From contig NZ_QOCL01000003.1 of assembly GCF_004006665.1 (NCBI RefSeq), forward strand, positions 124,001 to 188,000: DNA of 64,000 nucleotides, read 5' to 3'. Both the position numbers and the translations under genes were made by a program. Source of the stretch: Halobacteriovorax sp. HLS (lineage in GTDB: Bacteria > Bdellovibrionota > Bacteriovoracia > Bacteriovoracales > Bacteriovoracaceae). Below the pieces are notes generated by a model, which saw nothing but the letters and a program-made list of their open reading frames with translations, did not search any database and had not been told where the DNA came from. Shown here one piece after another: positions 6,516 to 36,012 of this stretch (the first letter of the stretch is position 1; each line of letters opens with the position of its first letter).

Positions 6516-6621
6516 AATTTCAGCTAGTTAGATAATTAAACATGCATGTTTTATTTACACAGTGACTTAGGTGGGAAGCCGCGCTGTGTTATAAATGACT
6601 ATTAATAAAAAGAGGAATACT

Positions 6622-9600
6622 GTGCAAAAATTATTTAATCTAATAATGATCACCCTTGTTGGGGCCCTATTATTTGCTAATACCAATGCAAAGGTAGAGT
6701 ACATTCCTCTTGATACAACAAGAATTCCTAGTAACGACCTTCTTCACCCAGAGCTTGGTAAGCTTAGCTCAGAACAAGCATGGCAATTACAAAACGATTC
6801 AAATATTGGATTGGACTTATCACTATTAAATCCAATAGAGAGTGAAGTATGGAAGAATACAGATCAAACTCTAGCAAATAGTGATATTGATGAAATCCAA
6901 GTTTCTTCGCAAACAGAGCTAGTCTTTCTAGGTGTCTTAGGCTCTCAATCTGGAACCCTACGCTTCACTGTTTTAGATAATACTACAGGTAATATTCTAA
7001 ATATTGTTCTCGATAAGAACCTTCATACATTATTACTAAGAAAGAATCTACTGCGTAAACTTGGATATGTTGTTCCATCGATGAAGTATAAGAAAAAAGT
7101 TAAAGTTGCATTTAGCAGCTTAGAGGAAAAGAATCACTTCTTAGAAAGGGTCATTCCTGAAAATACATTTGGAGCACCGTCTAGATGGATGGTTGCAGAC
7201 TCTGAAGTAACAATTGATCTGCAAGATGTGATTGTAATGCTACCTCGCTATGGTGATCATTATAATTTAGCCTTTGGTGTTCCTCCTAAGACTTTGACCA
7301 GTAGAACTCTGAGATCTCTCATTGTTCCTTACTCTCTTTTAGACGTTGATGAAGCTATTAATACTTTTAGCTTTAAGGCCGCAAGAAAAGAAGCAAATAG
7401 CATTGAACTAAGTCACTTCACGCTTGCAGATATGAATACAACTCAAGATGATGCAAAGTGGATTCTAGGTAGAATGAAAGACTTTTCTAGAGAAGACTTT
7501 GAGCAAATTGTTAAGAACTCTCATCTTCCTTATGAAGTTTCATTGCTACTAGTTGAAAAACTTATTGCTAGAAGAAATAATTTATTAGAACTCTTTGCTA
7601 TCGATTCTACTCCAATTGAATTTAATCCAAAGATTAGCTATGGTGAAAATTTAAAAAACGGAAGACTTCTTAAAGAGAATTATGATGGTTATGCATCTCG
7701 CTTTGCCTATGGTGATCCAGATTCTCCATTTAGAGAACTTAAGTATTCTCTTTTGAGTAAGCTTCAGTCCGATGCGATTGATTCTCTGATTAGGCAAGCA
7801 AATTCAAAGCTATCTGTTTTTGATGTTAACGATGCACGACTCGACTATCATAAAGAACAATTTGAAACAGGATTGAATCATTATATTGAAACGGGAGAGT
7901 TTCTAGAGCAAAAAGTTGGTACTTGGGTATCTCCAATTGTTAATGGAAATATTATCCTCTCTCGTGACGTCGTTGTCGGTAATTACCAAGGAAGTGATAA
8001 TCTTGTTCAAACATCGGATATTTTTGGATACGGAGTTTCTCTAGGTGCAAATGTTGGAATTGAGGGATTACCAGCTGGTTACACTGCCCTTGCTAGAGGT
8101 CAGGTAAGTTATTTAAAAACCTTCTCTCACTTAAAACCTGTCCGCTCATTAAAGGCCTCTTTAAAAGAGCCTTATAAGAATATGATTGTTTCACTGTTAA
8201 AGAAAAACCTAGAAAAGCGCTTGCTTGAACTTTCTAAGCTTGGAGAAGTGGAGGATCAAGAAAATCGTAATGAACGTATTCAACTAATAGCAGATGAGAT
8301 TAACGAGAACTTAGGAGTAGGTGAATCACTTATAATATCTGAAAGATTAACTCCATCTTTTCTTGTAAAGGGCGGATATTCTTGGGCCAATACTAAATTA
8401 AGTCTTGCTATCGACACAAACTCAGTTTTGATGAAGAGAGTGCATATTTATCGTAAGGATGCAGATACTGTCCAGGTTTATGTTGATAACGGAAAGCTTG
8501 GAGAAGTAGGTGTTTCAATAGAGCTTGATAGTTATATCCCTGTAACAAAACTAAACTTCAGCGTTTCAAAGGGTAACTTTAATGTTGAATTATATAATGT
8601 AAATATTAATTCTGATCCAGACCTGAATCCGAAACTATTTTCTGGGGTTAACGCAATCTACTCCTTACTCGATTCTGGGTCTAAAGAGCTACTAGGTAGC
8701 TACACAAGTCCTTATAAAATTAAGAATAGTTTTCTAGATAAGAGCTCTAAGTATGCTTTTCTTAATTGGAGAATGAAGAAATTGAAAAAGAGAGGACAGT
8801 TCTCTGTCTTTACTCCAGAAAACTATGAAGCTAAGTTTTTTAAGTATACTTATCAAAAAATGATTGGTCTTAATAATTGGGCCTTTGCTCGAGATGTGGC
8901 GAACTATTACTTAAGTAAGATTACTGAGTATATAACACTTAGAAATGAAACTTGGAAAAGGCCATCTCAAACATTTTACGGCGTAAATGCAGTAGAAGGA
9001 CTAAGGTTTGAGTCTCGTTATGATGAAACTAAAAAAGGTAGAGCACAATTTCCTGATACTTTCATGGCCCTAGAAATCTTAAAGGAAGGGTGGAAGATAA
9101 AAGAATCTAAGCTAAAGAAGATGATCTCTGAGATTAACGAAGAGTTTGGAACAAAGATTTTTTCTGATTCAGATATAAATGATGCAACAGGATTGAAGCT
9201 ATATTCAGTCTCAGTAAATTTAAATATCTACGAAAAAGGTGTGTGGAATATTTTAGATTTTAATGAAGATAAAATTCTAGAGCTTGGAAGGGAATATAGA
9301 AAGAAGTATTACGATAGAAGACACTGTTCAACAACTCGTTTAAATAGAGCTCCTATCTCTAAGAGAATTCTTTGTGGTAAGTTTCAGCCTTTCGTTGATA
9401 AGAGAGAGAGCTGTGTTAAGAAAATGAAAAAAGATGAATACGATGGTGTTGCCTGCTTAGTAGATCTTACGATGATGTATAAGAGACTATTAAATTATGA
9501 AGACTTCATTAGTATTATTGGTAAGAGTAATACTTACCTAAATGGAAAAATAACAGGCTATAGACAGGAAAGTGATATTCTATCGACTCCAATAAATGGA

Positions 9601-9717
9601 AATACTGAAGGACAAGTCAGTGGGAAGTATTGGAACGGACCTGTTGAAGAACTTAGAACTCGAATTGAGATGCAATCCAATGAATTTAACGGATCATGGT
9701 TAAGGGAGAATATGTAA
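6622..9717 (+). CDS. Large secreted protein of unknown function, coupled to a protease gene
   Basis: This exported protein of about 1031 residues has no recognised domain. The frame opens at an ATG at 6595. AGAGGA five bases before the GTG at 6622 makes that the more likely start, and it yields a clean signal peptide (MQKLFNLIMITLVGALLFAN, cleaved near ANA-K). The mature part mixes beta-rich segments (around 440-480 and 590-650) with charged helices, plus a few C-terminal cysteines. Its stop codon overlaps the start of the serine protease gene (TAATG at 9715-9719), so the two are translationally coupled. The protein could be a substrate, carrier or surface anchor for that protease (inference). 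Confidence 0.75.
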   Translation: MQKLFNLIMITLVGALLFANTNAKVEYIPLDTTRIPSNDLLHPELGKLSSEQAWQLQNDSNIGLDLSLLNPIESEVWKNTDQTLANSDIDEIQVSSQTELVFLGVLGSQSGTLRFTVLDNTTGNILNIVLDKNLHTLLLRKNLLRKLGYVVPSMKYKKKVKVAFSSLEEKNHFLERVIPENTFGAPSRWMVADSEVTIDLQDVIVMLPRYGDHYNLAFGVPPKTLTSRTLRSLIVPYSLLDVDEAINTFSFKAARKEANSIELSHFTLADMNTTQDDAKWILGRMKDFSREDFEQIVKNSHLPYEVSLLLVEKLIARRNNLLELFAIDSTPIEFNPKISYGENLKNGRLLKENYDGYASRFAYGDPDSPFRELKYSLLSKLQSDAIDSLIRQANSKLSVFDVNDARLDYHKEQFETGLNHYIETGEFLEQKVGTWVSPIVNGNIILSRDVVVGNYQGSDNLVQTSDIFGYGVSLGANVGIEGLPAGYTALARGQVSYLKTFSHLKPVRSLKASLKEPYKNMIVSLLKKNLEKRLLELSKLGEVEDQENRNERIQLIADEINENLGVGESLIISERLTPSFLVKGGYSWANTKLSLAIDTNSVLMKRVHIYRKDADTVQVYVDNGKLGEVGVSIELDSYIPVTKLNFSVSKGNFNVELYNVNINSDPDLNPKLFSGVNAIYSLLDSGSKELLGSYTSPYKIKNSFLDKSSKYAFLNWRMKKLKKRGQFSVFTPENYEAKFFKYTYQKMIGLNNWAFARDVANYYLSKITEYITLRNETWKRPSQTFYGVNAVEGLRFESRYDETKKGRAQFPDTFMALEILKEGWKIKESKLKKMISEINEEFGTKIFSDSDINDATGLKLYSVSVNLNIYEKGVWNILDFNEDKILELGREYRKKYYDRRHCSTTRLNRAPISKRILCGKFQPFVDKRESCVKKMKKDEYDGVACLVDLTMMYKRLLNYEDFISIIGKSNTYLNGKITGYRQESDILSTPINGNTEGQVSGKYWNGPVEELRTRIEMQSNEFNGSWLRENM

Positions 9718-12536
9718 TGAAGAAAACCCTTATTCTATGTCTATTATCGCTACAGACTTTTGCAAATGATCCTTTGTCATCTCTTCAGTGGGCGCTTGAA
9801 AATAATGCTCAACCAATATTTAGATCAACTGGTGAACTAACACGTGAGTTTGTTAGAGGAGTTAAGGGTGAAGACCTTGATTTACCAAAAGATTTGGTTT
9901 TAACAAAGAATAAGACCATCGTTGCGGTTATTGATTCTGGTGTTGATATTGAGCACCCTGACCTTAAAGATAATATTTGGACTAATCCTAAGTGTAATGA
10001 GTTAACTCTTGAACAAAGAGCTGATCAAGATTGTCATGGATGGAACTTCCTAGACGGAAATAATGATTTAATTGATGAAATAGGACATGGGACACATGTC
10101 GCGGGGATAATCGCTGCTACTTCTAATAATGGAATTGGTATTAAAGGGGTCGCTTCTCAAAATGCATTAATAATGCCTCTTAAGATTCTTAATCCTAAAG
10201 TAAATAGCTTCGTTTATGATAAGAAGGTTATTACTAATATCATTGCAGATGCGATTGCCTATGCGATTAAAAATGGCGCGCAAGTTATTAACTTATCTCT
10301 AGGATGGCCAAAACTAATTCATACTAAGAAGGTTCGCTTTGCTATTGATCAGGCCATTGCTAAGAATATTGCCGTAGTCGTCGCTTCTGGAAATAATAAT
10401 AAGAAGATTCCAGTTTATCCGTGCGCATATGATGAAGTCATTTGTGTCGGAGCAATGGACAATAAGGGAAATATTCCTGAATTTTCTAATTTTGGTGCGA
10501 AGGTAGATGTCATCGCTCCTGGTGAGGGTATCATAAGTACATATCCTAGAAACTTAGAATCGAGATTGCTTAGAATCCCTGGTTATGAAATTAAAAAAGG
10601 TTCTTCTCAGGCGGCACCATATGTATCGGGGCTAATCGCTCTGGATAAGTCTCGTAATTCTGATCTCTCTCTTGATGAGATTAAGCAACGTCTCTTTACT
10701 GGAGCAAGAAAAATCGAAGGACAAAAAATTATCAAGTATGGAAAGGTTTCTTTTACTGGCTATGAGTCTGTTGTTTTAGAAGACGGACACCCTGAGTTTA
10801 ATTTAAAAGGTCTCAGCGAAGTTGTTATTAATGAAGATGGTCGTTTTTCTTTTAGTCTACCTGTAAGGGCACTTGTTAAAGATATTCCTTCTCTTAATTT
10901 TAAAGTAACTCTAGGTCATCAGGGTAATACCTTATTTGAACAGAGCTTTGATAAAGTAAAAGTTTTAAACTCAAAGCATAGAGAGATTCGTGTTACTGGT
11001 ACTTTAGATAATTTTTCAATTGATTCTCATATTCCAATGACGATTGAATTTAATGAAAAATCAATTACTCATGAACTTGCTTTCGTTAGAGAAGTCGACA
11101 AGATTGATAATAAAGTAACTCTTACAACTAATCTTCCTGCAAAGAACCTTATTACAATTCAGTCTGGACGTAAGTTCTCAAGGCTTCAGAAAGTAATCTC
11201 AACAAATTATGCTTCTAAGTCTTTTGATTACTTCTATGAAATTATTGGTAGTCCAGATACAAAGGTACAGATTGCTAAAATATCAAGTACAGATGTTCTT
11301 GAAAGTGTTTTTACTATTCCTAAAGTTGGAAAGATTTTAAATATAGTAAAGAATGATTTTAACTTTGATGGAATAGATGACTATATGATTTATTCATTAG
11401 GCAAGAAGAGTGAAAACCTCATTCTTAGCTACCTCACAAATGATGGGGCACCATTATTTAATGAATACTCTCATTGGACTTTCCCTATTTCAGGCTTTGA
11501 AGGATTACCTTTCTTTAATAATGAAATTAAGTTTGATTTTTTGAAAGTAGAGACTAGCTTTATGGGAGCAGTTAAAGTTCCAACATTTATGAAAACTTGG
11601 AAGATGCCTGAGGCCGACAATACTTTGGACCCTCTTGATCGAATTGACTCTGAATTTGCGACGAAGAGACCTTACTACTTATTACCTAAGCTAGTTGACG
11701 GGAAGGTTGTCCTAGATATTAGAACTCTTTCTTCTTACAAGTTTTTAGAGGACTTTAAAAAGAAGTTTAATGTATCTTCACGAGATGAATTATATTTTGA
11801 CACAATTATAACGCAAAATTTAAATGCTGCTAAGGACGCGAAACTTTCTGCGATTGTTATTACGGGTAGAGAATTTGCCAAGCGCTATTATGAAGTGGTT
11901 TTTTCAAATACAAGTGAATACGAAGTTAAAGAAATAGGTTTATGGGGTAGAAGTCTCGAGTCAAATAAAACTCTTATCAATGATGACCTTCTTTCAAATG
12001 AGAGAGCATCTTTTGCTTTAATAGACAGACAGAAGTTAAGAGTTCAATTTTGGAATAATATTGAGACTGGTGATGTTCTTGAATTTGATACTGGAAGTTG
12101 GGGAGACTTAATTATTGATGTTCTAAATCTCTCACAGAACTTATTTAGTAAAGCTCTATTCATTGAAAGTCGCTACTTTATACATCTCGCAACAAATACT
12201 GGCGTAAAATCGAAGCTACCTATTAATAGAGAAAGTAGTTTTCCTGGTGTAAATTTCTCTGAAACGATCAAGCAAGTTAAGGTCTCTAATTCAGAGGGGA
12301 ACTCTTCAGCACTTCTTATTGATTCAAGCCTTATTTATGGTGATAGGCTATATGCAATGGTTTATGACAACGGAGAATTCTCATCACCAATTTATTCTAG
12401 TTTTAAGGTTCCGGCCAATTGTAAGCATGTTGATACGTTAAACTCTAATGATGAGTCAACTTTACTTCTGACATGTTTACAGAAAGACGGTAGTGCAACA
12501 ATTGAATTACTCAAATTAGAACAGAGAGTTGAATAA
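9717..12536 (+). CDS. Secreted subtilisin-like (S8) serine protease with long C-terminal extension
   Basis: This exported protease of about 939 residues has all subtilase motifs. The catalytic Asp73 is in AVIDSGVDIEHPDL, His124 in GHGTHVAG, the oxyanion Asn226 in ASGNNN and Ser297 in GSSQAAPYVSG. The signal peptide is MKKTLILCLLSLQTFA. The catalytic domain spans about residues 60-330. The remaining 600 residues are beta-rich and of unknown fold, with an Asp/Asn-rich FG-GAP-like patch (FNFDGIDDYMIY). The frame opens at 9696, but AGGGAG before the ATG at 9717 fixes the start there, overlapping the previous stop codon. A role in degrading external protein is expected from the family. Confidence 0.92.
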   Translation: MKKTLILCLLSLQTFANDPLSSLQWALENNAQPIFRSTGELTREFVRGVKGEDLDLPKDLVLTKNKTIVAVIDSGVDIEHPDLKDNIWTNPKCNELTLEQRADQDCHGWNFLDGNNDLIDEIGHGTHVAGIIAATSNNGIGIKGVASQNALIMPLKILNPKVNSFVYDKKVITNIIADAIAYAIKNGAQVINLSLGWPKLIHTKKVRFAIDQAIAKNIAVVVASGNNNKKIPVYPCAYDEVICVGAMDNKGNIPEFSNFGAKVDVIAPGEGIISTYPRNLESRLLRIPGYEIKKGSSQAAPYVSGLIALDKSRNSDLSLDEIKQRLFTGARKIEGQKIIKYGKVSFTGYESVVLEDGHPEFNLKGLSEVVINEDGRFSFSLPVRALVKDIPSLNFKVTLGHQGNTLFEQSFDKVKVLNSKHREIRVTGTLDNFSIDSHIPMTIEFNEKSITHELAFVREVDKIDNKVTLTTNLPAKNLITIQSGRKFSRLQKVISTNYASKSFDYFYEIIGSPDTKVQIAKISSTDVLESVFTIPKVGKILNIVKNDFNFDGIDDYMIYSLGKKSENLILSYLTNDGAPLFNEYSHWTFPISGFEGLPFFNNEIKFDFLKVETSFMGAVKVPTFMKTWKMPEADNTLDPLDRIDSEFATKRPYYLLPKLVDGKVVLDIRTLSSYKFLEDFKKKFNVSSRDELYFDTIITQNLNAAKDAKLSAIVITGREFAKRYYEVVFSNTSEYEVKEIGLWGRSLESNKTLINDDLLSNERASFALIDRQKLRVQFWNNIETGDVLEFDTGSWGDLIIDVLNLSQNLFSKALFIESRYFIHLATNTGVKSKLPINRESSFPGVNFSETIKQVKVSNSEGNSSALLIDSSLIYGDRLYAMVYDNGEFSSPIYSSFKVPANCKHVDTLNSNDESTLLLTCLQKDGSATIELLKLEQRVE

Positions 12537-25503: not shown

Positions 25504-26205
25504 CTACTTAGGATGGTGGATGTTGATCACAAAGCGCTCATAGATATCTTTACTATGAGCTCTTACAAGATCAAGAAGTTCGAACTGCGAAGGGTTTAAG
25601 GTGGATAGGTAATTTTCAAAAACTTCATAGCTAAGAGTTTGCAGAAATTTATTCGCTGTCGGGTAGTGTGATAGGTGCCACTTCTCGGGGGAGACACCTC
25701 CAAGGTCGTCCTTATAAGGCCTGTAGAAATTAAAACTTCTTCCATGATCAATTAGCTGATCTAGAAAACAATGTAGAGGCCCAAAGATTCCCTGTGGCGC
25801 CACTTCATCTGGCGTTAGCTCCACACAGTACTCCGAGCACGGTAATGAATTTGAATCATAAATATCAAACTCTGTTCCCCAGTGGTGTCTACTCATTCCA
25901 GGTAGAGCACTCCATCTAAGTATTGCAAAGAGAACTTCCTCTTCACTCAAAGAACTAAAAGTTAGAGGAGCTCCATACTGATCTAGAAGGGCCCGTTTCC
26001 CCTTGGCCTTAGCATTCCAAATAGATAACTGGGTCTCATAACTTCTAAAGGAGCTGTGAATAGTGAGGTTGTATCCTTCTTTTTCACATAGACCCTTTAG
26101 GGACATAAAGTCCTTAGCTGTCTCAATATGGGCCAGGTGTGTTGTCGTTTCTATAGGAATTAAGTGGGTCTGAGTTTGACCCAATACTTCTTTTAAATCA
26201 GTCAT
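25504..26205 (-). CDS. VanY-type D-Ala-D-Ala carboxypeptidase (M15B)
   Basis: This protein of about 233 residues has the LAS-metallopeptidase motifs. SRHHWGTEFD supplies His107 and Asp114, and PEKWHLSHYP supplies the catalytic Glu174 and zinc-binding His177. SSFRSYETQ is the usual upstream substrate-loop motif. It would trim peptidoglycan stem peptides. The long frame starts at a TTG at 26244, and the ATG at 26205 is preferred. Neither start has a good ribosome binding site and no signal peptide is evident, so the export route is unclear. Confidence 0.85.
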   Translation of the reverse strand: MTDLKEVLGQTQTHLIPIETTTHLAHIETAKDFMSLKGLCEKEGYNLTIHSSFRSYETQLSIWNAKAKGKRALLDQYGAPLTFSSLSEEEVLFAILRWSALPGMSRHHWGTEFDIYDSNSLPCSEYCVELTPDEVAPQGIFGPLHCFLDQLIDHGRSFNFYRPYKDDLGGVSPEKWHLSHYPTANKFLQTLSYEVFENYLSTLNPSQFELLDLVRAHSKDIYERFVINIHHPK

Positions 26206-26431
26206 AAAGACTATTCTAACTGAAAAGTTGGAAAAAATATTCAACGAGGTTAAGAAGAAAGTTAATAAACTTAACCAATCTTAAGATATTCTGTGTGGAA
26301 TATTTTGTAAGGGTGGAAAGATTGAGATTACCTTTAACTAAAGGTTAAGTTTAAGTTCTCTGATGATTTAGCTCTTTGTCTATCTGTATAAATCAGAGCT
26401 TATTGGCCGCATAACTATAGAAGCTAAATAG

Positions 26432-26517: not shown

Positions 26518-26790
26518 ATGACAACCCCAAAGGAAAAGGACATCGATATGAATATCTCATCTCAGCACGCAGTAAGTGTATTTGGCACAAGTAATTTAGA
26601 ACAAATTAAATCTCAAAGAGCTCTTATTGAGTCTCATGAACGTAGTCATAAATTATCACTCTTTAGTCTTGTTGGTGTGGCCCTTTTAGTTTTAATGAGC
26701 TTTTTACAAATGATCTTTGGTGTTCTTCTTATTCTAGATCAAATTCCAGAAACAAGTTGGATTATGAAGTCAGCACTTTCACTATTCTAG
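26518..26790 (+). CDS. Small single-span membrane protein
   Basis: This 90-residue protein has a soluble N-terminal half and one strong hydrophobic segment near residues 48-73 (SLFSLVGVALLVLMSFLQMI and following). AGGAG with six-base spacing precedes the ATG. The long non-coding region upstream suggests a regulated single-gene unit. The stop codon overlaps that of the convergent gene at a CTAG. Function unknown. Confidence 0.7.
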   Translation: MTTPKEKDIDMNISSQHAVSVFGTSNLEQIKSQRALIESHERSHKLSLFSLVGVALLVLMSFLQMIFGVLLILDQIPETSWIMKSALSLF

Positions 26791-27626
26791 TAGGTCTGAA
26801 CTTGTTTATTAGCTTCCAAGTTTAGTATTTTCTTTTTCTTTTCGAGACAATCTATAACTGACTGCACTTTTCCAAACTGATCGTGGCATGTGTTTATAGA
26901 ACGAGCTGCGGCCGTAGCGACTGCTCTGCTGCTGCCTTTTAAGGCCTCGCTATCAGTCCCCGCTGCGAAGAAGTACTTCATGCGCTTAGGGTGTATTAGG
27001 GTATGATCAGATCTTTCTTTAAGCCCATCCGCAGGGAGAAGATAACTTCCAATAGTAATAATATTGCTCTTTCTAAAGTCCACTTGGGGCCAAAGTTTTG
27101 TGGTTTTATTAATACCTCGACCAAAAGTAGCTCCTGCCACAAAAGCAAGTGTAGGTACTTTTAAAACATGAACAGATTTAACCTTTACCCCAGCAGCGAT
27201 AATGAAAAGATCGAACTTTTTATTATCTACCAAGGCATCTTCCCAGTAGCTGGGCCTAGTAAATCCATTTTTATCAAAAATTTGAAATGGTTGAATATCT
27301 ACTTTTATTTCATTGGAGAGTTCTTCAATAAATCTATTCAAAACGAGTTGACCATGAAAGAGCCTATTGCTTGAAATCTCTTTTGCGCTAACTTTGCTAC
27401 AATCGATATTGTGAGTCTTAGTTAGATCAATTGCTCTTCTAATATGTATTGTAGGGGATGGCCTTTCACTGGTTGGACAAAATGCTGTATCTAAAATGGC
27501 CACAGTGAGAGTTTTGGCCTGGGAGTTGATACTAATAAAGAAGAGTAGGACTAGAAGTCCTACTCTTTGATAAATATTCTTATCTTCTTGAATTGTTAGT
27601 ATCTTCAACGTAAACAAATGGTGCAT
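26787..27626 (-). CDS. Secreted divergent subtilisin-like protein
   Basis: This 279-residue protein has a hydrophobic export signal at about residues 20-37 (RVGLLVLLFFISINSQA) after an unusually long N-region. Three short motifs match a subtilase triad in order: Asp in VAILDTAFC, His in RLFHGQLVLN and Ser in KGSSRAVATAAA. The core is smaller than usual and the His motif is not the canonical HGTHVAG, so it may be a highly divergent or inactive S8 protein. AAAAGGA precedes the ATG, which lies within the end of the upstream gene (47-base overlap), indicating co-translation with the large secreted protein. Confidence 0.65.
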   Translation of the reverse strand: MHHLFTLKILTIQEDKNIYQRVGLLVLLFFISINSQAKTLTVAILDTAFCPTSERPSPTIHIRRAIDLTKTHNIDCSKVSAKEISSNRLFHGQLVLNRFIEELSNEIKVDIQPFQIFDKNGFTRPSYWEDALVDNKKFDLFIIAAGVKVKSVHVLKVPTLAFVAGATFGRGINKTTKLWPQVDFRKSNIITIGSYLLPADGLKERSDHTLIHPKRMKYFFAAGTDSEALKGSSRAVATAAARSINTCHDQFGKVQSVIDCLEKKKKILNLEANKQVQTY

Positions 27627-30600
27627 GAAGTCCTTTTAAGTCTTCAACCTTCTTGTAGAGGTTCTTGTCATACTTCTTAAGCGCTTTGTAACTTTTCTTT
27701 ACTTCTTTTAAAGCGGCTTTGATAAATAGTGCACCAAACATTCTGTTGTGAATTGCGAATTGAAGTCTGTCTTCAATCGGATCATAATCACTTAGAGCAC
27801 TCTTTATAGTATAGTAGAAGTCATGAGCAAAAAGAAAGAGAGAAGCGTTATTATCTCTAGTTTTTCCGTCAACAAGCTTACTTAGTCTATTGTGAAGAAG
27901 TGAATTATCATCTCTTACTAGATCGGCAATGTCCTTGTCTCTTGAAAGACCTCCACCACTTTCTTGGTAGTGCTTGTTAATTCTCATTACTTCATCAATT
28001 GCTCTTATATTTGCCATTTGCATAAGTTGTTTCTGATCTTGATTAGCACTGAAGAAGCTCTTAGTGTTAACACCTGTTTGAATTCTTGAAAGAATTTGAT
28101 CATTGCTCAACTTCATCAGTTCAGAAAAAGAAAGGAAGTTCTTGTAGTTATTCATTGATGCAATCGCTACTGGCACTGGACTCTTTAATCCTCCAACTCT
28201 CATTGGATTTGCAAAGATCATCTTAATTCCGTTACCTAAACCTGCAACGTTGAAATCAAACTCTTCGGCATCCTTAAAAGTAGAGATTTTTCTTAAACCT
28301 GAAGTACCATTTTTTAACTCATCGATTAAAACAACTGATGTGTTTTCAGACTTCTTAAGCATTCCGTCAATTTGCTTTAAAGCACCTTTTTCAAGCAGTA
28401 GAAGTGTTTGTCCCTTAAGACCATTTCCTAGTACTGAACGATTAAGTTGCTCTAGTGAAACATCTAGTACAGAAGCTCCAGATAGACCTCCCATCGTTGA
28501 TAATAAGTCGACTAGATCTCTAGTTGAAGTTTCTGAGTTTGCTACAACGATTGGCTTTCCTCTTTTTTCAATATAAGGAGCTTTTGCCATAGTCGTGAAG
28601 GCCGAATCTAAGTGACCTAGAGTAACCCCATTTTTAGATATAATCGCTCTAAAAGTTAGAGGTGTGAAGATATCTGATTCATCATTTATAAGAAGAGTTG
28701 CATCTTTAAGAGTCGTAGACTTTCCTAGTGATGCTACTGGATTAAATCCTTTAGTGATGATCTTAGAGTTAGAATTAACATCTAAAGTTACTTTGATCTC
28801 TCCTGTGTAGTTTCTCTTTGACTCATTTACCATTGTTACTTGTAGACTATTTGCCTGTCCAATGATTGGAGTTTTCGCTGTAGATAGAGCAGTAAGCTTA
28901 AGTGGAAACTTTACTCTATTTTGTTTCTTGTCTCCTGCGTTGATTTGTCCTTGAGAAGGATTCGCAAAGTGACGACCTTGAATACCAACTTCGGCACTAA
29001 GAGGAGAGTAGGCAGTGATGATCTTCGTATCAACAGATCCGTCTTGTGCAATTACACTAGACTTTGAAACACCTTTAACTGTTGCTGTAGAGCCTGCTGG
29101 AATTGTTGGAACTTTAAACTCTTTTCCATTTTCCATTACAACTTTTACATTTGTTGCATCTACTTTTCCGTAGTTAGTGATGACAATTGAGTGAAGAGTG
29201 TTCTCACTTGGTTGGAAAACCCCATCTCTTGCAGCAACACCATTTATACCTACGTCTTCGATAGAAGATGATTCAAATTTTAGAACTGGTTTTTCAGAGT
29301 AGATTTTAGATACTTCAGCGTGTCTCTTGCTTCTGAATATTTCTGTTTGAGCTGCAATATTAGCGTTGAAAGTTTGCTCTTCAGCACTTGCGTAATTCGC
29401 TCTTCTAATAGACTCATAAACTGAGTTGTAAGTATCAGCTTCAACCTTGGCATAAGTTTGCTTGAACTCATTAGAGTTTCTATTTGGATTCATCGAGAAT
29501 TGCGTACGGTTTCTATTGTAAGCATTGTCAAAGTGTCTTTGATAATCTCTGTTATAAGCGTCTCTTTCACCGGCTTCATAACCGCTTCTTCTCATATCAG
29601 GATATGATCTATTGAAGAAATCATCGAAAGTCTCATTATAATTTGTATCATAAACTGAGTTATAGATATTTGTAATATTTGTTTCGTAAGAAGCTCTTAA
29701 TCTTCTTCTGTATCTTGCCTTGTATCCATCAGAGAATGCACTATTAACGATTCTTCTATTGAACTTTCCATTAGGATCAAAATTTCTTCCTTGGTGATTG
29801 ACAGGGAAGTTTGGAATGACTCTTGCGAATGCTCCTGCAAAATCTCCATTTAATTGAACTTTCTTTAGAGCAGCAGACTCAAATTTTTGAATAGCTTGAG
29901 TTTGTCCAATTTGTGAACCACGGCTATTTCCTGTATTGATGGCCCTTTGCATTCCTGCTAGGTTCCCTTGGTTTCTACCAACAGATGCGGCATCTGAGCT
30001 ATTTGCTCTATTTGTTCCATCGTCCTTTCCAATTCTTGTTGCTGCATCAATATTACCTTGACGAGTTCCATCTATTGTTCCGTCTTCAGATCCTTCGCTA
30101 AGTGCTCGCGCTGCTCCATCTACTTGACCATTGCTATAACCAATAGAGCGTTCTCTTTCTCTACCTTCTCTTAAACCATCATTTTGCCCATCACTGTCGC
30201 CATCTCTAGAGCCATGGTACGAACCAAGTCTATCAGCTAAGAAACGACCATCAGAATGTCCATCGTCTGCTCCTTCAAGGGCGCCTCTTCGGTTTACATC
30301 TAAAACTCTTGCGATAAGTCTTTGTCTGTATTTTTGCTTATCTTCTTTAGCAAGAGTGAGAACATTTCTTGAACTTTCTAATTGCTTCTCAACTGGAGCA
30401 AGCTCTTGCTTGGCAACTCTTAGTTGTTCGATCTTTGTTTTCTTTTGATTTTTTAAAGTAACTAGCTTCACACCATTACTAGAGATAGAGTTATCAAGCT
30501 TTGCAATGCTTTCAGTTAGTTTTCCAATTTGAGCGTCAACTCTTGCAAGAATTTGTGTTTTAGTCTTTACATTTTTTTGAGCTGTACTTTTAAACTCATT

Positions 30601-31182
30601 CTTCGTTGAAAGTTCTTTATTTGCTTGTGCTAGTTTCTGCGTCAAGCGCTCAACTTTTTTCTGGCACTGAGCTGATGGGGACGCCGTACATTCTGTTTTT
30701 GCATCAGCAAGTTTCTTTTCAAGATTTGTTACAGCGTTTTGGGCCTCTGTCGCTGCTGCTGTGGCCTGAGTTAGTGCCGCTTTAGCAAGATCAAGTTCAG
30801 ACTTTGCAGCTTGTTTTTTTTGAGTAGCAACTTTTTTCTGATTCGTTAGACCATTTTTTTGAATGACTTCTTTAGATATAAGTTTTTCAAGTGAGTCAAT
30901 AGAGCTAACGATTGAATCTCTTTCTGTATCTAGTTTTTTTACTTTATCTTTAAGTACTGATGCTTTAGCGCTTATTTTATTAAACTCATTTTGTGCTGTA
31001 TCTAGTTTTTGTATTCTACGTGCTAGATCTGGATCATCTTTAAGTTGAAAATTTAAATTACCTATATAGTCTCTTGCCCATTCAGGATTATTCGCTAGAA
31101 CTGAGGGGGAGATGGAAAATAAGATCGCTAAGGTTAGGGAACACATTTTCTTGGTTGTAATTGATGGCCTTAGTTTCTTCAT
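27580..31182 (-). CDS. 1200-residue secreted protein with coiled coil and Gly-x3 repeat array
   Basis: The signal peptide ends near residue 30 (SISPSVLANN). Residues 55-290 are a long Lys/Glu/Gln/Ala-rich coiled coil. Residues 300-430 have Gly (or Ala) at almost every fourth position, often as DG, with one phase slip near 384. Residues 480-620 carry Tyr/Asn-rich repeats (units such as NSVYDTNYN and DNAYNRN). The C-terminal half contains beta-sandwich-like domains (650-880) and a Rossmann-like/helical tail. It is probably a surface or periplasmic fibrous protein; no family is recognised. It is coupled to the divergent subtilase gene downstream. Confidence 0.8.
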   Translation of the reverse strand: MKKLRPSITTKKMCSLTLAILFSISPSVLANNPEWARDYIGNLNFQLKDDPDLARRIQKLDTAQNEFNKISAKASVLKDKVKKLDTERDSIVSSIDSLEKLISKEVIQKNGLTNQKKVATQKKQAAKSELDLAKAALTQATAAATEAQNAVTNLEKKLADAKTECTASPSAQCQKKVERLTQKLAQANKELSTKNEFKSTAQKNVKTKTQILARVDAQIGKLTESIAKLDNSISSNGVKLVTLKNQKKTKIEQLRVAKQELAPVEKQLESSRNVLTLAKEDKQKYRQRLIARVLDVNRRGALEGADDGHSDGRFLADRLGSYHGSRDGDSDGQNDGLREGRERERSIGYSNGQVDGAARALSEGSEDGTIDGTRQGNIDAATRIGKDDGTNRANSSDAASVGRNQGNLAGMQRAINTGNSRGSQIGQTQAIQKFESAALKKVQLNGDFAGAFARVIPNFPVNHQGRNFDPNGKFNRRIVNSAFSDGYKARYRRRLRASYETNITNIYNSVYDTNYNETFDDFFNRSYPDMRRSGYEAGERDAYNRDYQRHFDNAYNRNRTQFSMNPNRNSNEFKQTYAKVEADTYNSVYESIRRANYASAEEQTFNANIAAQTEIFRSKRHAEVSKIYSEKPVLKFESSSIEDVGINGVAARDGVFQPSENTLHSIVITNYGKVDATNVKVVMENGKEFKVPTIPAGSTATVKGVSKSSVIAQDGSVDTKIITAYSPLSAEVGIQGRHFANPSQGQINAGDKKQNRVKFPLKLTALSTAKTPIIGQANSLQVTMVNESKRNYTGEIKVTLDVNSNSKIITKGFNPVASLGKSTTLKDATLLINDESDIFTPLTFRAIISKNGVTLGHLDSAFTTMAKAPYIEKRGKPIVVANSETSTRDLVDLLSTMGGLSGASVLDVSLEQLNRSVLGNGLKGQTLLLLEKGALKQIDGMLKKSENTSVVLIDELKNGTSGLRKISTFKDAEEFDFNVAGLGNGIKMIFANPMRVGGLKSPVPVAIASMNNYKNFLSFSELMKLSNDQILSRIQTGVNTKSFFSANQDQKQLMQMANIRAIDEVMRINKHYQESGGGLSRDKDIADLVRDDNSLLHNRLSKLVDGKTRDNNASLFLFAHDFYYTIKSALSDYDPIEDRLQFAIHNRMFGALFIKAALKEVKKSYKALKKYDKNLYKKVEDLKGLHAPFVYVEDTNNSRR

Positions 31183-31413: not shown

Positions 31414-32067
31414 ATGAATAAGTACGATACGGCTTTTAGTAACCTAAAATCAAAGGGTTATACTTTTACACCTTCCGATTCTTTAATAGAGTTCTGTGAA
31501 TTCTATAAAAAGAGTTTTAACACTCATGAAAGACCTTCAATCTTAGAACTAGGTTGTGGTCCATATCTTCATTTCTATAATGAAGGATCAATTGGAGTTG
31601 AGCTCTCTAGTGCAGCAATAGAGATGGCCGAGCTGTCTCACTCTGAGAGAATAACTTGTAGTTCTATATTCGATTATCAAGGTAGTGGTAAGTTTGATAT
31701 TTTATTTGATTCACACTTACTTCACTGTCTAAGTTCAGTATCTGAAGTGCAAAAGTACTTTGAAGTGGTGAGTGGACTTTTAAATTGTGGTGGACACTTT
31801 CTTCTAGAGTGTATGGTTAAACCTCAGCGGCTAGTTGTAGATGAAGGTTATTTATTTGATGAAGACCAATTCACTCTGAGTCACAATGGTCTCGTTCATA
31901 GAGTCATTCTGCCAACTTTTGAATTAGAGAAAATTGTCCAGGCCTGTGGCTTAAAAATAGTTTACTTCCGAGTTGATGAAAAGATAAAATTTATACCGTA
32001 CTCACATAGAAGTGAATCTCTTCCGACTGATCCAGATCGGTTGAGAATGATCTGTTTAAAGGAATAA
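31414..32067 (+). CDS. Class I SAM-dependent methyltransferase
   Basis: This 217-residue protein has the SAM-binding motif ILELGCGPYLHF followed by an acidic strand end (GSIGVELSSAAIEMA) and a post-motif FDILFDSHLLHCL, as in class I small-molecule methyltransferases. The substrate is unknown. It is the first gene of a tight four-gene operon with MscS, RND and secreted-protein genes; one base separates it from the next ATG. Confidence 0.8.
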   Translation: MNKYDTAFSNLKSKGYTFTPSDSLIEFCEFYKKSFNTHERPSILELGCGPYLHFYNEGSIGVELSSAAIEMAELSHSERITCSSIFDYQGSGKFDILFDSHLLHCLSSVSEVQKYFEVVSGLLNCGGHFLLECMVKPQRLVVDEGYLFDEDQFTLSHNGLVHRVILPTFELEKIVQACGLKIVYFRVDEKIKFIPYSHRSESLPTDPDRLRMICLKE

Positions 32068-32068
32068 A

Positions 32069-32914
32069 ATGAATTGGATTAAAGATAATTTAAAATACCT
32101 ATCGACACCCTTATTTGAAATTAGTGGAAATAAAATTTCTTTGGTTTCTGTCTTACTTGCTTGTGTTGTTTTCTTTTTAACGACACGACTGGCGAAAATG
32201 ACTGAGAGATTTATGCTGAGGATTCTTAAAGATAAGGGGCTTGAGTCTGGTGTCAGAGGATCAATCGCTACAATTTCTAGGTATGTTGTTTTAACAACGG
32301 GGATCTTAATCACTTTAGATACTGTTGGTATCTCTTTGTCTTCTCTGACGGCACTTGGTGCAGTTTTAATGGTCGGGATTGGTTTTGGTCTCCAAAATAT
32401 TGCTCAAAACTTTATTTCCGGACTTATTATCTTATTTGAAAGGCCTATTAAGGTTGGGGATCACGTCACTGTAAATGGCGTTTCTGGAAGAGTATCTGAG
32501 GTTGGAGCAAGGTCAACTCTACTACATACTAGAGATGATGTGGCCATCATTGTACCAAATAGTCAGTTTATCTCTGAACAGGTTGTAAATCAGAGTTTTA
32601 CTGGAGAGAAGATGCGTGTGCATATGAATGTTGGGGTGGCCTATGGAAGCGACACGCAGAAAGTAGAGAGTATCCTCATGGATATTGCTCGCTCAAATCA
32701 ACATGTCTTAAAAAATCCAGAACCTAAAGTCTTCTTTGAAGGATTTGGTGATTCATCGTTGGACTTCTCCTTATCAGTATGGATAGATGACATATGGGAA
32801 CAAAGAAAAATCTTGTCAGATATTAGATTCAAGGTCGATCAGAATTTTAGAGAGCAAGATATTGTTATTCCATTTCCTCAACGAGATCTTCACATTAAAA
32901 AGAGTGAGCTATGA
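32069..32914 (+). CDS. MscS-family mechanosensitive channel
   Basis: This 281-residue inner-membrane protein has three N-terminal membrane segments. The pore helix/beta-domain signature is GIGFGLQNIAQNFISGLIIL followed by ERPIKVGDHVTVNGVSGRV, and the typical PNSQFISEQVVN follows. It acts as an osmotic safety valve. Length and motifs match small MscS proteins. AAAGGA lies just upstream, overlapping the previous stop codon. It overlaps the RND gene by 4 bases (ATGA). Confidence 0.93.
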   Translation: MNWIKDNLKYLSTPLFEISGNKISLVSVLLACVVFFLTTRLAKMTERFMLRILKDKGLESGVRGSIATISRYVVLTTGILITLDTVGISLSSLTALGAVLMVGIGFGLQNIAQNFISGLIILFERPIKVGDHVTVNGVSGRVSEVGARSTLLHTRDDVAIIVPNSQFISEQVVNQSFTGEKMRVHMNVGVAYGSDTQKVESILMDIARSNQHVLKNPEPKVFFEGFGDSSLDFSLSVWIDDIWEQRKILSDIRFKVDQNFREQDIVIPFPQRDLHIKKSEL

Positions 32915-35900
32915 GAGGGATTGTTAGTTATTTTACTAAGAATCACCTAATTTCAAATGTCTTATTTGTTGGTGTCTTTATTTTGGCCATTGCTAGTTGG
33001 CAGAAGATTGGGAAAGAAGAGCTCCCGGAGTTTGAGTCAAACTGGATACGTATTTCAGCAAGCTATCCAGGAGCTTCAGCAGAAGATGTTGAACTCTTTG
33101 TCACAAAGCCTATTGAAGATGAAATTAAAGAAGTGACAGGTATTAAAGAAGTTTATTCCACCTCATCGGTTGGAAGTTCATCTTTTAGGATTGTTCTGGA
33201 TGAAAATTTTCCAGATACTAGGGAAGTTGTCCAAGATATTAAAGATGCCACTTTGCGAGCATCTCTTCCACGAATTGTTAAGACGCCTAGTTTTAGGCAA
33301 TTCAAGTCCGCCGAAAAAGCGATCATCGATATAGGCTTCTATCTTGAAGGGCACAAGAGTTTAAGTGTTGAACAAAGAGAGGAGTTGCAAAAATTTGTTT
33401 TAAATTTTGAAGGCCAGATTAAAGTTCTTCCTGAAATTAGTGGAGTTACAAAAAAAGGATATTTAGAACCTGAGTTACATATTCTTCTAAATCCTGAAAA
33501 GATTGAGAGAAATGACTTATCAATCGATAGACTTGTAAGCATTATTGAAAATAATAATATTCGTGTACCACTCGGAACATTAGAAGATAGAGAACAGTCT
33601 AAAGTTACAGCTATTAATGAATTAGAGACTAAAGAAGATCTTCAAAATCTCTTTGTACAGGGAAACTATGATGGAAAGGGAGTTAGACTTAATGAAGTCG
33701 CCACTGTGTCTCATGGGTTTGAAAAGTCTACAGTCATAAATAAGATTCAAGGTCATGAAGGAATTGTAATAAATGTTAAAAAGAATGTTTCTACAGATAT
33801 TTTAACGGCCCAAGAGATTGTTTTAAAATTTGTGGAAAATTTCAATCGTCTTCATTCAAAGAGTAATCTCAAGATCGTTCTAATGGATGATGAGTCCTAT
33901 GATGTTAAGAATAGGCTCTCGATTGTTGCCAGTAATGGTCTTATAGGCTTTATCCTTATCTTTATAGTTCTCTTTATTTTCTTAGATTTTAAATCAGGGC
34001 TATGGGTTGGTTTAGGGATTCCTTTCACTCTTTGTTTTACAGTTATTTGCATGACCATTATTGGATATACAGTTAATAATATGACTCTTGCTGCGATTAT
34101 TATAGTAATGGGAATTGTGGTTGATGATGCCATAGTTGTAGCAGAAAATATTTCTAGAAAGAGAATTCAAGGTATTGCACCGTTTGAAGCTGCCGTTGGT
34201 GGGACGCTTGAGATCGTTAAACCTGTCTTTGGTAGTATCCTTACAACTTGTGTCGCTTTTATTCCTCTTCTCTTTTTTGAAGGATTCTTTGGTAAGTTCG
34301 TCGAGTATATTCCATTTGTTGTAATCTGTATGCTAGTGGCCAGTTTACTAGAGTCTGTGACTATTTTACCTTCGCACTTAATGGATAGAAAGAAATTTAA
34401 TAAGAACGATTCTTCTAGGCCAACATCTTGGTTTTTAAAGTATGAAGCAAAGTATTCTAAGTTCTTGTTTAAATTGTTACGCTTTCGTTCAATTGTTCTT
34501 ATCTTTTCATTGTTAATCTTAGGTGTCTCTGGCTATCTGTTTAAAACAAAAATGAAATTTGTTATGTTCCCAAGAGAAGAAGGTAAAGAAGCTCATTTAA
34601 AAGTTATCGCCAAAGAGGATTTAAATAGATTTGAGATGTCTGCATTAGTTGAAAGCGTTGAAGATATTATTTTAGCTGACTTAGACAAAGGGGTTGTTGC
34701 CGTAACGACAACTATTGGTGAAAGTAGAAGAGGTTCTGGTGTTAAGGAAAATCAAGCAAGTATAAATATTGAACTTCTCGCAAAAGAAGATAGAGAACTA
34801 TCTCTCAATCAATTTATTAAGAAGTGGGAAGCGTCAACTAGTAAGCTAGAAGGGTTTAAGAGCATTAAGTTTCTTAAGTCGAGATGGGGAAGAGATAGTG
34901 GTGCTGCTCTTGAAGTTCAGATCCAAGAAAATGACGATATCTCTCGGAACCTCATTGCTGAAAAAGTAAAGCAGGCATTTGAAAAGTCTGGCAAGCTTGT
35001 TGATATAGAAATTGAAAAGCCTCTAGTAAAGCGTGAATATAATTTTAAAATCGATCAGGAAAAACTTGTTCGATTTAATCTTCAGCCTTCGCAAGTGACG
35101 ACTTCTTTGCGTGCTTTCATTGAAGGAAATATTCTCTATACAATTAGTAAAGGAAATGAAGACGTTGAAGTTAGACTAACTGTGGATCGTAAATCTAAAT
35201 TTGACCTAAATACTCTTAGAAAACTTAGAATTGAAAATAGCTCTGGAGGATATATCACTCTTGATAAGATTGTATCAATCGAGGAGCTTAAAAAACCATC
35301 TAATATTCAAAGAAAGGATTATAAAAGAACTACTATTCTTTATGCAAATATTAAAGATGGGGTGAAACTCACTCCTCTTGAAGTAGCAGAAAATCATGAG
35401 TCTTCGACTTTTACAGAGATCTTAAAAGACCATCCTACGGCAGTTCTTTCTTTCATAGGTGAAGTTAAGGATACTAGAGAGTCTAGTGGGGATTTTGCTG
35501 TTTCCTTACTGATGGTTATTTGTTTGATTTATTTTATCTTAGTAATCATGTTCAACTCTCTAGGTGCACCTCTACTCATCATGGGAATAGTTCCATTTGG
35601 CCTAAGCGGAGTTGTATATGTTCTGCTGCTTCATGGAATGACTGTTTATGGATTTTTTGCCGCTGTTGGGGCCTTGGGTATGATCGGTGTTGTGGTAAAC
35701 GATGCTATTATTATGGTTACTAAGTTAGAGCAAGAACTAGATTTTACAAGAACTGATGCCGATAGTGGGATCGCTGAGATTTCTTCAACTAGATTACGAC
35801 CAATTATTGTGACTACATTAACTACTGTTGCCGGGGTTCTTCCGACTGCCTATGGAATTGCTGGATATGATTCAATGCTTGCAGAAATGATGCTTACAAT

Positions 35901-36012
35901 GGGTTGGGGATTACTTATTGCCACAGGTATTACACTTATACTGATTCCATGCTTGTACTCTTTCTTTCACGATATAAGAGCATACTTCTTCAAAAAGGTT
36001 AAACATGACTAG
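32911..36012 (+). CDS. RND-family efflux permease (AcrB/CusA-like)
   Basis: This 1033-residue protein has the RND architecture: a first membrane helix (VLFVGVFILAIASW), a periplasmic domain opening with YPGASAEDVE, a central block of helices including VVDDAIVVAENISRKR (motif with Asp residues for proton relay), a second periplasmic domain, and a C-terminal helix block with GMIGVVVNDAIIM. Length is normal. No periplasmic adaptor (MFP) or outer-membrane factor gene is adjacent, which is unusual. It must use components encoded elsewhere or work without them. Confidence 0.93.
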   Translation: MRGIVSYFTKNHLISNVLFVGVFILAIASWQKIGKEELPEFESNWIRISASYPGASAEDVELFVTKPIEDEIKEVTGIKEVYSTSSVGSSSFRIVLDENFPDTREVVQDIKDATLRASLPRIVKTPSFRQFKSAEKAIIDIGFYLEGHKSLSVEQREELQKFVLNFEGQIKVLPEISGVTKKGYLEPELHILLNPEKIERNDLSIDRLVSIIENNNIRVPLGTLEDREQSKVTAINELETKEDLQNLFVQGNYDGKGVRLNEVATVSHGFEKSTVINKIQGHEGIVINVKKNVSTDILTAQEIVLKFVENFNRLHSKSNLKIVLMDDESYDVKNRLSIVASNGLIGFILIFIVLFIFLDFKSGLWVGLGIPFTLCFTVICMTIIGYTVNNMTLAAIIIVMGIVVDDAIVVAENISRKRIQGIAPFEAAVGGTLEIVKPVFGSILTTCVAFIPLLFFEGFFGKFVEYIPFVVICMLVASLLESVTILPSHLMDRKKFNKNDSSRPTSWFLKYEAKYSKFLFKLLRFRSIVLIFSLLILGVSGYLFKTKMKFVMFPREEGKEAHLKVIAKEDLNRFEMSALVESVEDIILADLDKGVVAVTTTIGESRRGSGVKENQASINIELLAKEDRELSLNQFIKKWEASTSKLEGFKSIKFLKSRWGRDSGAALEVQIQENDDISRNLIAEKVKQAFEKSGKLVDIEIEKPLVKREYNFKIDQEKLVRFNLQPSQVTTSLRAFIEGNILYTISKGNEDVEVRLTVDRKSKFDLNTLRKLRIENSSGGYITLDKIVSIEELKKPSNIQRKDYKRTTILYANIKDGVKLTPLEVAENHESSTFTEILKDHPTAVLSFIGEVKDTRESSGDFAVSLLMVICLIYFILVIMFNSLGAPLLIMGIVPFGLSGVVYVLLLHGMTVYGFFAAVGALGMIGVVVNDAIIMVTKLEQELDFTRTDADSGIAEISSTRLRPIIVTTLTTVAGVLPTAYGIAGYDSMLAEMMLTMGWGLLIATGITLILIPCLYSFFHDIRAYFFKKVKHD

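Follow-up and report, generated by a model that had tools for sequence, protein, structure and literature searches.

A long glycine-every-fourth-residue array in a putatively exported rod protein of Halobacteriovorax, and its subtilisin-fold partner gene

Little structural work has dealt with soluble proteins that carry long GxxxG arrays. Passages of a study on Yae1 and Lto1 describe deca-GX3 motifs that mediate the Yae1-Lto1 complex, the motif being needed for partner binding (PMC4523923). For FliH/YscL, the available passages of a 2009 study describe soluble AxxxG(xxxG)mxxxA segments predicted to be helical, with GxxxG repeats ranging from 0 to 12, and report that among 7,963 proteins no helix in the PDB has repeats near the FliH length (PMC2674601). 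Here we consider a stretch of 64,000 nucleotides from Halobacteriovorax sp. HLS (contig NZ_QOCL01000003.1, positions 124,001 to 188,000; hereafter the window) and in it the gene for a 1200-residue protein, the rod protein, together with an overlapping gene for a subtilisin-fold protein, its partner. The host is a marine bacterium of a predatory group, described as such in the abstract of one report (PMC5760749). An earlier note on this DNA, made from the sequence alone, had drawn attention to Gly or Ala at nearly every fourth position from about residue 300 to 430 of the larger protein. This array is a real, strongly conserved and unusual feature, and on the best reading it belongs to a rod protein that is exported and works with a dedicated subtilisin-fold partner. 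With its arrays of near-fixed length and the linked subtilisin-like gene, the family makes the packing of soluble glycine-striped helices directly testable. It also suggests that a group of bacteria known for its predators has an exported module of two genes that has yet to be studied. Our literature search, which covered few subscription journals, found no paper on the rod family.

Gly or Ala occupies 32 of the 33 four-residue register positions between residues 300 and 430, E344 being the sole departure, and the register shifts by one residue twice (380 to 385 and 393 to 398). The residues named earlier as examples (G300, 304, 308, 312, A316, G320, 324, 328, 332, 336 and 340) are all correct, as is the placement of the array at 29880-30285, with residue 300 encoded by 30283-30285 and residue 430 by 29893-29895. 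The longest strict Gly run is 6, or 11 counting Ala. The segment 296-432 has 17 Gly in its best phase; across 20000 shuffles the mean is 8.6 and the highest count 15, and none reaches the Gly phase bias of the window protein. As background we used 165 other open reading frames (ORFs) of at least 150 residues, from 20 kb of the window and loci L021-L035. In their best 25 register positions, Gly/Ala peaks at 17 with a median of 7 and Tyr/Phe at 8 with a median of 5; the window protein reaches 20 and 16. The Gly/Ala count exceeds this background by a small margin; array length and conservation exceed it by a large one. Residues between the array glycines are mostly polar or charged, which disfavors a transmembrane GxxxG helix. 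Mirror symmetry of the Gly positions about the turn was also computed but is not used as evidence, because the period alone would produce it. Searching PDB sequences with the array stretch of the window protein gave no match at E ≤ 10.

The array is held across homologues. An initial search matched the rod protein in 17 of 59 relatives. With a 15-sequence profile, full-scale orthologues are found in 49 of 129 family genomes (E ≤ 1e-100) and matches of any strength in 108, the extras being mostly coiled-coil-only or array-only by their query ranges. Register length was scored in 60 homologues of at least 900 residues, leaving aside the shorter L087, L145 and L147. Among the 48 family orthologues in this set, the window protein included, 47 keep 32-35 register positions, so that the periodicity proposed from one sequence is not lost in orthologues; the exception, L089, has 28. 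Homologues from other families have 33-44 (ten sequences), and two weak family matches, L093 and L035, have 20 and 23. Of the 47 invariant positions in the 15-sequence alignment A1, 19 lie in residues 300-430 (Fisher p 7.5e-8). A 26-sequence alignment has Gly/Ala in at least 90% of aligned sequences at 29 of the 33 register columns, those below being 316, 344, 414 and 430, with 344 mostly neither Gly nor Ala. Mean entropy is 0.30 for register columns versus 2.14 for other array columns. Array length stays near-fixed, and the columns invariant, at identity down to 26%. Of 290 genomes sampled across the phylum, 51 have a match at E ≤ 1e-20, and 12 of these belong to families other than the window's. 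The best 100-residue stretches in these 12 hold Gly/Ala at 22-25 of 25 positions and Tyr/Phe at 13-20 of 25, and judged by these counts both arrays persist in other families. Of eight distant homologues examined, five show unbroken runs of 31 Gly/Ala and of 17 Gly. Genome G059 carries the rod gene as two separate ORFs (L061, L101). Two further frames of 1287 and 1230 residues (G042:C3:142977-143255 and G015:C10:470516-470812) give weak array matches and stand outside the orthologue set.

The rod protein is apparently exported, given its signal peptide and a near-invariant Cys pair. Export had also been claimed in the earlier note, and a Sec signal peptide is indeed predicted, called by eye from the sequence and the orthologue alignment rather than by a predictor. 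The same note had likened the array to deca-GX3 helices of the Yae1/Lto1 type, though far longer. The likeness stands as a motif (Gly at every fourth position, with at least ten GX3 units in a soluble segment, Gly or Ala counted), and the greater length is borne out; membership of that family does not follow. The Yae1/Lto1 motif spans 40 residues in proteins of cytosolic Fe-S assembly, whereas the rod has 33 register positions in an exported protein of 1200 residues. Yae1_N (PF09811) has no match in the window protein at E ≤ 1, matches two of the 15 members of A1 (best E 0.54) and stays below cut-off in all four distant homologues scanned (best 26.5 versus 27.5 bits). With no match above the Pfam gathering score in the rod proteins scanned, we reject Yae1/Lto1 membership. 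FliH differs in that its repeat number varies from 0 to 12, whereas the rod register keeps to the ranges given above, and in that the rod is exported and without a FliH domain. The C-terminal domain of FliH (PF02108) has no match in the window protein at E ≤ 1, the NCBIfam FliH model matches residues 259-337 weakly (E 5e-6, 26 bits versus a cut-off of 192), and the genome's own FliH sits elsewhere (G000:C4), by reading with a short repeat only. The missing domain, the near-fixed array length and the separate FliH lead us to reject this membership too; the rod resembles Yae1/Lto1 and FliH in motif only. With SMC proteins it shares an antiparallel coiled-coil arm (residues 49-285), but it is exported, has a two-Cys loop at the tip and matches no SMC ATPase domain. 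Pfam SMC gives no match in the rod at E ≤ 1, and NCBIfam SMC covers only 55-289, far below cut-off; the relation is one of coiled coil only, and SMC membership is rejected.

Very long GX3 arrays with Tyr also occur in putative lipoproteins of other family genomes (L090, L091, L092, L094, L095), exported by lipobox reading. They differ from the rod in size (358-502 residues where complete) and in their C-terminal domain, and no coiled coil or beta domains were seen on reading. One of them used as query finds only the rod gene in the window genome. Their genes form four tandem pairs (L090 952-2460 and 2497-3981; L091 1363-2838 and 2851-4001; L092 1-1090 and 1106-2557; L094 7-1191 and 1214-2407) and one single gene (L095 1208-2284), some incomplete in the fetched stretch. 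The products are mostly array, with as many as 25 consecutive Gly spaced four residues apart, and three of four scanned pass the Pfam Yae1_N cut-off.

An AlphaFold2 model of the rod protein was built on 26 sequences (mean predicted local distance difference test, pLDDT, 82.5; predicted template modeling score, pTM, 0.45). It has helices at 51-167, 171-393 and, after a break at 394-397, 398-435, then at 477-523, 528-564 and 571-630; beyond residue 630 the chain becomes beta-rich, then alpha/beta, and ends in a helical tail. Helix 171-393 runs from a coiled-coil hairpin resembling an SMC arm into the GX3 array. Residues 49-285 align with the SMC arm 5xg2 (Z 15.5, root-mean-square deviation (rmsd) 4.2, 235 aligned), in keeping with the 235-residue coiled coil noted earlier before the array; the shorter orthologue L029 is without the hairpin tip. 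Ten of the 13 ten-residue blocks of 301-430 have pLDDT 82-91, and the GX3 region is predicted to be an ordered helical hairpin rather than disordered only. The idea that it forms a tightly packed helical fibre survives in part: the array is helical by prediction, but the model gives helix-turn-helix, continuous with the coiled-coil hairpin, and not one uniform fibre. Parts of residues 632-868 match beta-sandwich domains of transglutaminases, HAP2 and glycosidases at Z about 10-11. The C-terminal stretch 876-1190 has no convincing Pfam or PDB sequence match, and Foldseek and VIA-align with the whole model gave matches only for the coiled coil and the beta domains, none for the arrays or the C-terminal part. 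In a model of 1200 residues, this lack is no evidence of a new fold.

A second four-residue array, of Tyr/Phe at residues 483-628, is weaker than the glycine one; neither it nor the linked subtilisin-fold gene had been noticed earlier. Its conserved aromatics lie in one phase at, for example, 483, 487, 491, 499, 507, 511, 515, 519, 527, 543, 547 and 555, and in another at, for example, 573, 577, 585, 589, 597 and 605. Residues 480-640 hold 11 Tyr in one phase, a count that 9 of 20000 shuffles reached.

The AlphaFold2 model of the partner (pLDDT 89.3) matches PfSUB1 (4lvo_A; Z 19.6, rmsd 3.1, 221 aligned). The partner is like the subtilases (Peptidase S8) in fold and Asp-His-Ser triad. It differs in having no propeptide, in scoring below the Pfam S8 gathering score and in its oxyanion hole, where position 167, aligned to the subtilisin DY site, is R13 T5 Q3 V1 N1 K1 of 24. 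Because Asn is kept in only 1 of 24 sequences, catalysis by the partner is uncertain. The subtilisin-fold alignment starts at residue 37, where the signal peptide ends by reading; since the catalytic domain starts right after it, the partner would have no propeptide of its own. The window partner has no Pfam Peptidase_S8 match at E ≤ 1, and four of the 13 partner members of A2 do (best E 5e-4). Some relatives (L102, L104, L111, L032, L034) show a lipobox-like Cys by reading, which would mean membrane anchoring; a simple lipobox pattern flagged only L102, the other calls being made by eye.

The two genes go together. Across the 129 family genomes, 46 carry both, three the rod gene only, one (G073) the partner only and 79 neither (Fisher p 4e-30), which places the partner in 46 of 49 genomes with a rod gene versus 1 of 80 without. 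In all three rod-only genomes the rod gene abuts the end of its contig. The contig stops 3' of the gene in G111 and G093 and 5' of it in G092; in G026 and G091, which belong to the genus of G092, the partner sits upstream of the rod gene. Where both are present, the partner lies directly downstream on the same strand (39 genomes), upstream (3), nearby on the opposite strand (2) or on another contig (2). Among 12 distant loci, seven can be read past the 3' end, and five of these have an adjacent subtilase, overlapping or abutting on the same strand in L136, L137 and L139 and on the opposite strand in L140 and L146. Four of the five pass the Pfam Peptidase_S8 cut-off, L139 lying below it.

We therefore favor an exported rod-like scaffold acting together with a dedicated exported subtilisin-fold partner, a reading to which we give a probability of roughly 0.45. 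At the level of sequence, the analysis demonstrates both registers, of glycine and of aromatics, the conservation and near-fixed length of the first, and the pairing of the genes. In the model, the second helix of the coiled-coil hairpin continues as a Gly-striped helix, and a second such helix is predicted to run back along its end; aromatic-striped helices, two beta domains and an alpha/beta tail would come after. The Gly stripes may allow close packing of the two array helices. From helix geometry, a four-residue stripe would drift by about 40 degrees with each repeat and come full circle after nine, implying right-handed packing. The outer, unpaired stripe (about 300-360) could dock the helices with aromatic stripes, supplied by its own chain or by a second copy. 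Such docking would yield a stiff periplasmic or surface rod, which may hold, position or be matured by the subtilisin-like partner. The conserved rod and its near-constant partner suggest an undescribed two-part cell-envelope system. A bolder version, which we offer tentatively and regard as rather doubtful, is that a single packing code has the Gly-x3 and aromatic-x3 arrays as its complementary halves, with aromatic ridges seated in a glycine groove, forming a long right-handed extracytoplasmic rod that with its degenerate subtilisin-fold partner would make an undescribed two-component envelope machine across several families of the phylum.

Several points weigh against the scaffold reading. 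We infer both the Gly-Gly and Gly-aromatic packing and the interaction of rod and partner. Domain placement in the rod model is uncertain because of its pTM, and the blocks around the turn (381-410) have pLDDT of only 72, 54 and 67. The aromatic chain score rises above the highest value from 200 window-protein shuffles in only 33 of 60 homologues, and in only 23 of the 48 from the family. The co-occurrence p-value counts related genomes as independent. Two of the seven readable distant loci have no adjacent subtilase (L141, six ORFs scanned, and L145, two, without a Peptidase_S8 match). The subtilases of L140 and L146 score as more ordinary Peptidase_S8 and, being also on the opposite strand, could be adjacent by chance.

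PopC of Myxococcus is a subtilisin-like protein. Excerpts of one study describe PopD as binding PopC and inhibiting its secretion, PopC having no signal peptide (PMC6434023). The likeness to the present pair, by description and not by sequence, is that of a protease with a dedicated binding partner. The rod might accordingly be a carrier, chaperone or inhibitor that keeps its propeptide-less partner folded or silent until needed. The near-obligate gene pairing and the start of the partner's subtilisin fold at the end of its signal peptide both speak for this. We nevertheless think it unlikely: Pfam matched no inhibitor or propeptide domain in the rod protein, rod and partner are exported where PopC has no signal peptide, and inhibition leaves the conservation of 33 register positions unexplained. 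A GX3 stripe that drives homo-oligomerisation into a fibre, perhaps with cleavage by the partner triggering assembly, would suit the long rod architecture predicted by AlphaFold2. That reading too seems improbable to us, as the single-chain model folds part of the array back on itself and large beta and alpha/beta domains come after it.

Descent from an adaptor of the Yae1/Lto1 or FliH kind, with a signal peptide gained by fusion, would account for the weak NCBIfam FliH match and for the one distant homologue that falls a single bit short of the Yae1_N cut-off; the results that exclude the rod from both families make this very improbable. Compositional bias alone would suggest a low-complexity or slippage product without function. 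Tandem Repeats Finder, however, found no repeat of the array period within the rod gene DNA and the Gly codons of the array are mixed, so that the pattern is held at the protein level; together with the near-fixed length and invariant columns in divergent orthologues, this contradicts such a product and leaves it with a negligible chance. Compared with any of these, the scaffold with its partner remains our preferred account. A defence-system identity was dropped, neither rod nor partner matching PADLOC at E ≤ 0.01. A role as core predation gene is not supported: the distant homologue L137 as query matches five of 66 genomes of its own family (E ≤ 1e-10), and none of the five matches falls in the large genus g83, which may be Bdellovibrio. 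Coordinates of the features are collected in Table 1.

Table 1. Features of the rod gene and its partner, in window coordinates
Feature	Position	Strand	Basis
Rod protein ORF, 1200 residues, GX3 and aromatic-x3 arrays, putatively exported	27580..31182	-	ORF; orthologues
Putative Sec signal peptide, residues 1-30 (...SPSVLA)	31093..31182	-	sequence reading and orthologue alignment
Conserved N-terminal motif PxWAxxYIGxxxFxLxDDP, residues 34-53	31024..31083	-	A1 consensus
Antiparallel coiled-coil hairpin, residues 51-285	30328..31032	-	AlphaFold2; SMC arm 5xg2 match
Hairpin tip with Cys165 and Cys173, proposed disulfide	30664..30690	-	Cys nearly invariant in A1; model break 168-170
GX3 array, outgoing helix, residues 300-393	30004..30285	-	register, AlphaFold2, alignment
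Turn between the two GX3 helices, residues 394-397	29992..30003	-	AlphaFold2, low confidence (block 391-400 pLDDT 54)
GX3 array, returning helix, residues 398-430 (helix 398-435)	29893..29991	-	register, AlphaFold2
Aromatic-x3 array, residues 483-628, predicted helices 477-523, 528-564, 571-630	29299..29736	-	conserved aromatic columns; helices
Two predicted beta-sandwich domains, residues 632-868	28579..29289	-	AlphaFold2; structure matches
Predicted C-terminal alpha/beta stretch and helical tail, residues 876-1190	27613..28557	-	AlphaFold2
Subtilisin-fold partner, 279 residues, putatively exported, start overlapping the upstream rod gene by 47 nucleotides	26787..27626	-	ORF; AlphaFold2; co-occurrence
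Partner triad Asp46, 24/24	27489..27491	-	24-row alignment
Partner triad His91, 24/24	27354..27356	-	24-row alignment
Partner triad Ser233, 23/23 rows with a residue (24th row gapped)	26928..26930	-	24-row alignment

Elsewhere in the window, a second overlapping pair lies on the plus strand, a 1040-residue protein (6595-9717) followed by a 946-residue Peptidase_S8 protein (9696-12536; 169 bits); the 1040-residue protein has no Pfam match at E ≤ 0.001, and no GX3 array was seen on reading it. Around the rod gene, a protein with a VanY-type D-Ala-D-Ala carboxypeptidase domain is encoded at 25504-26244 on the minus strand, and a methyltransferase-like gene, an MscS-type channel and an AcrB-type transporter at 31414-36012 on the plus strand. 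The methyltransferase-like and MscS-type genes adjoin the rod gene in seven of the 15 loci L021-L035.
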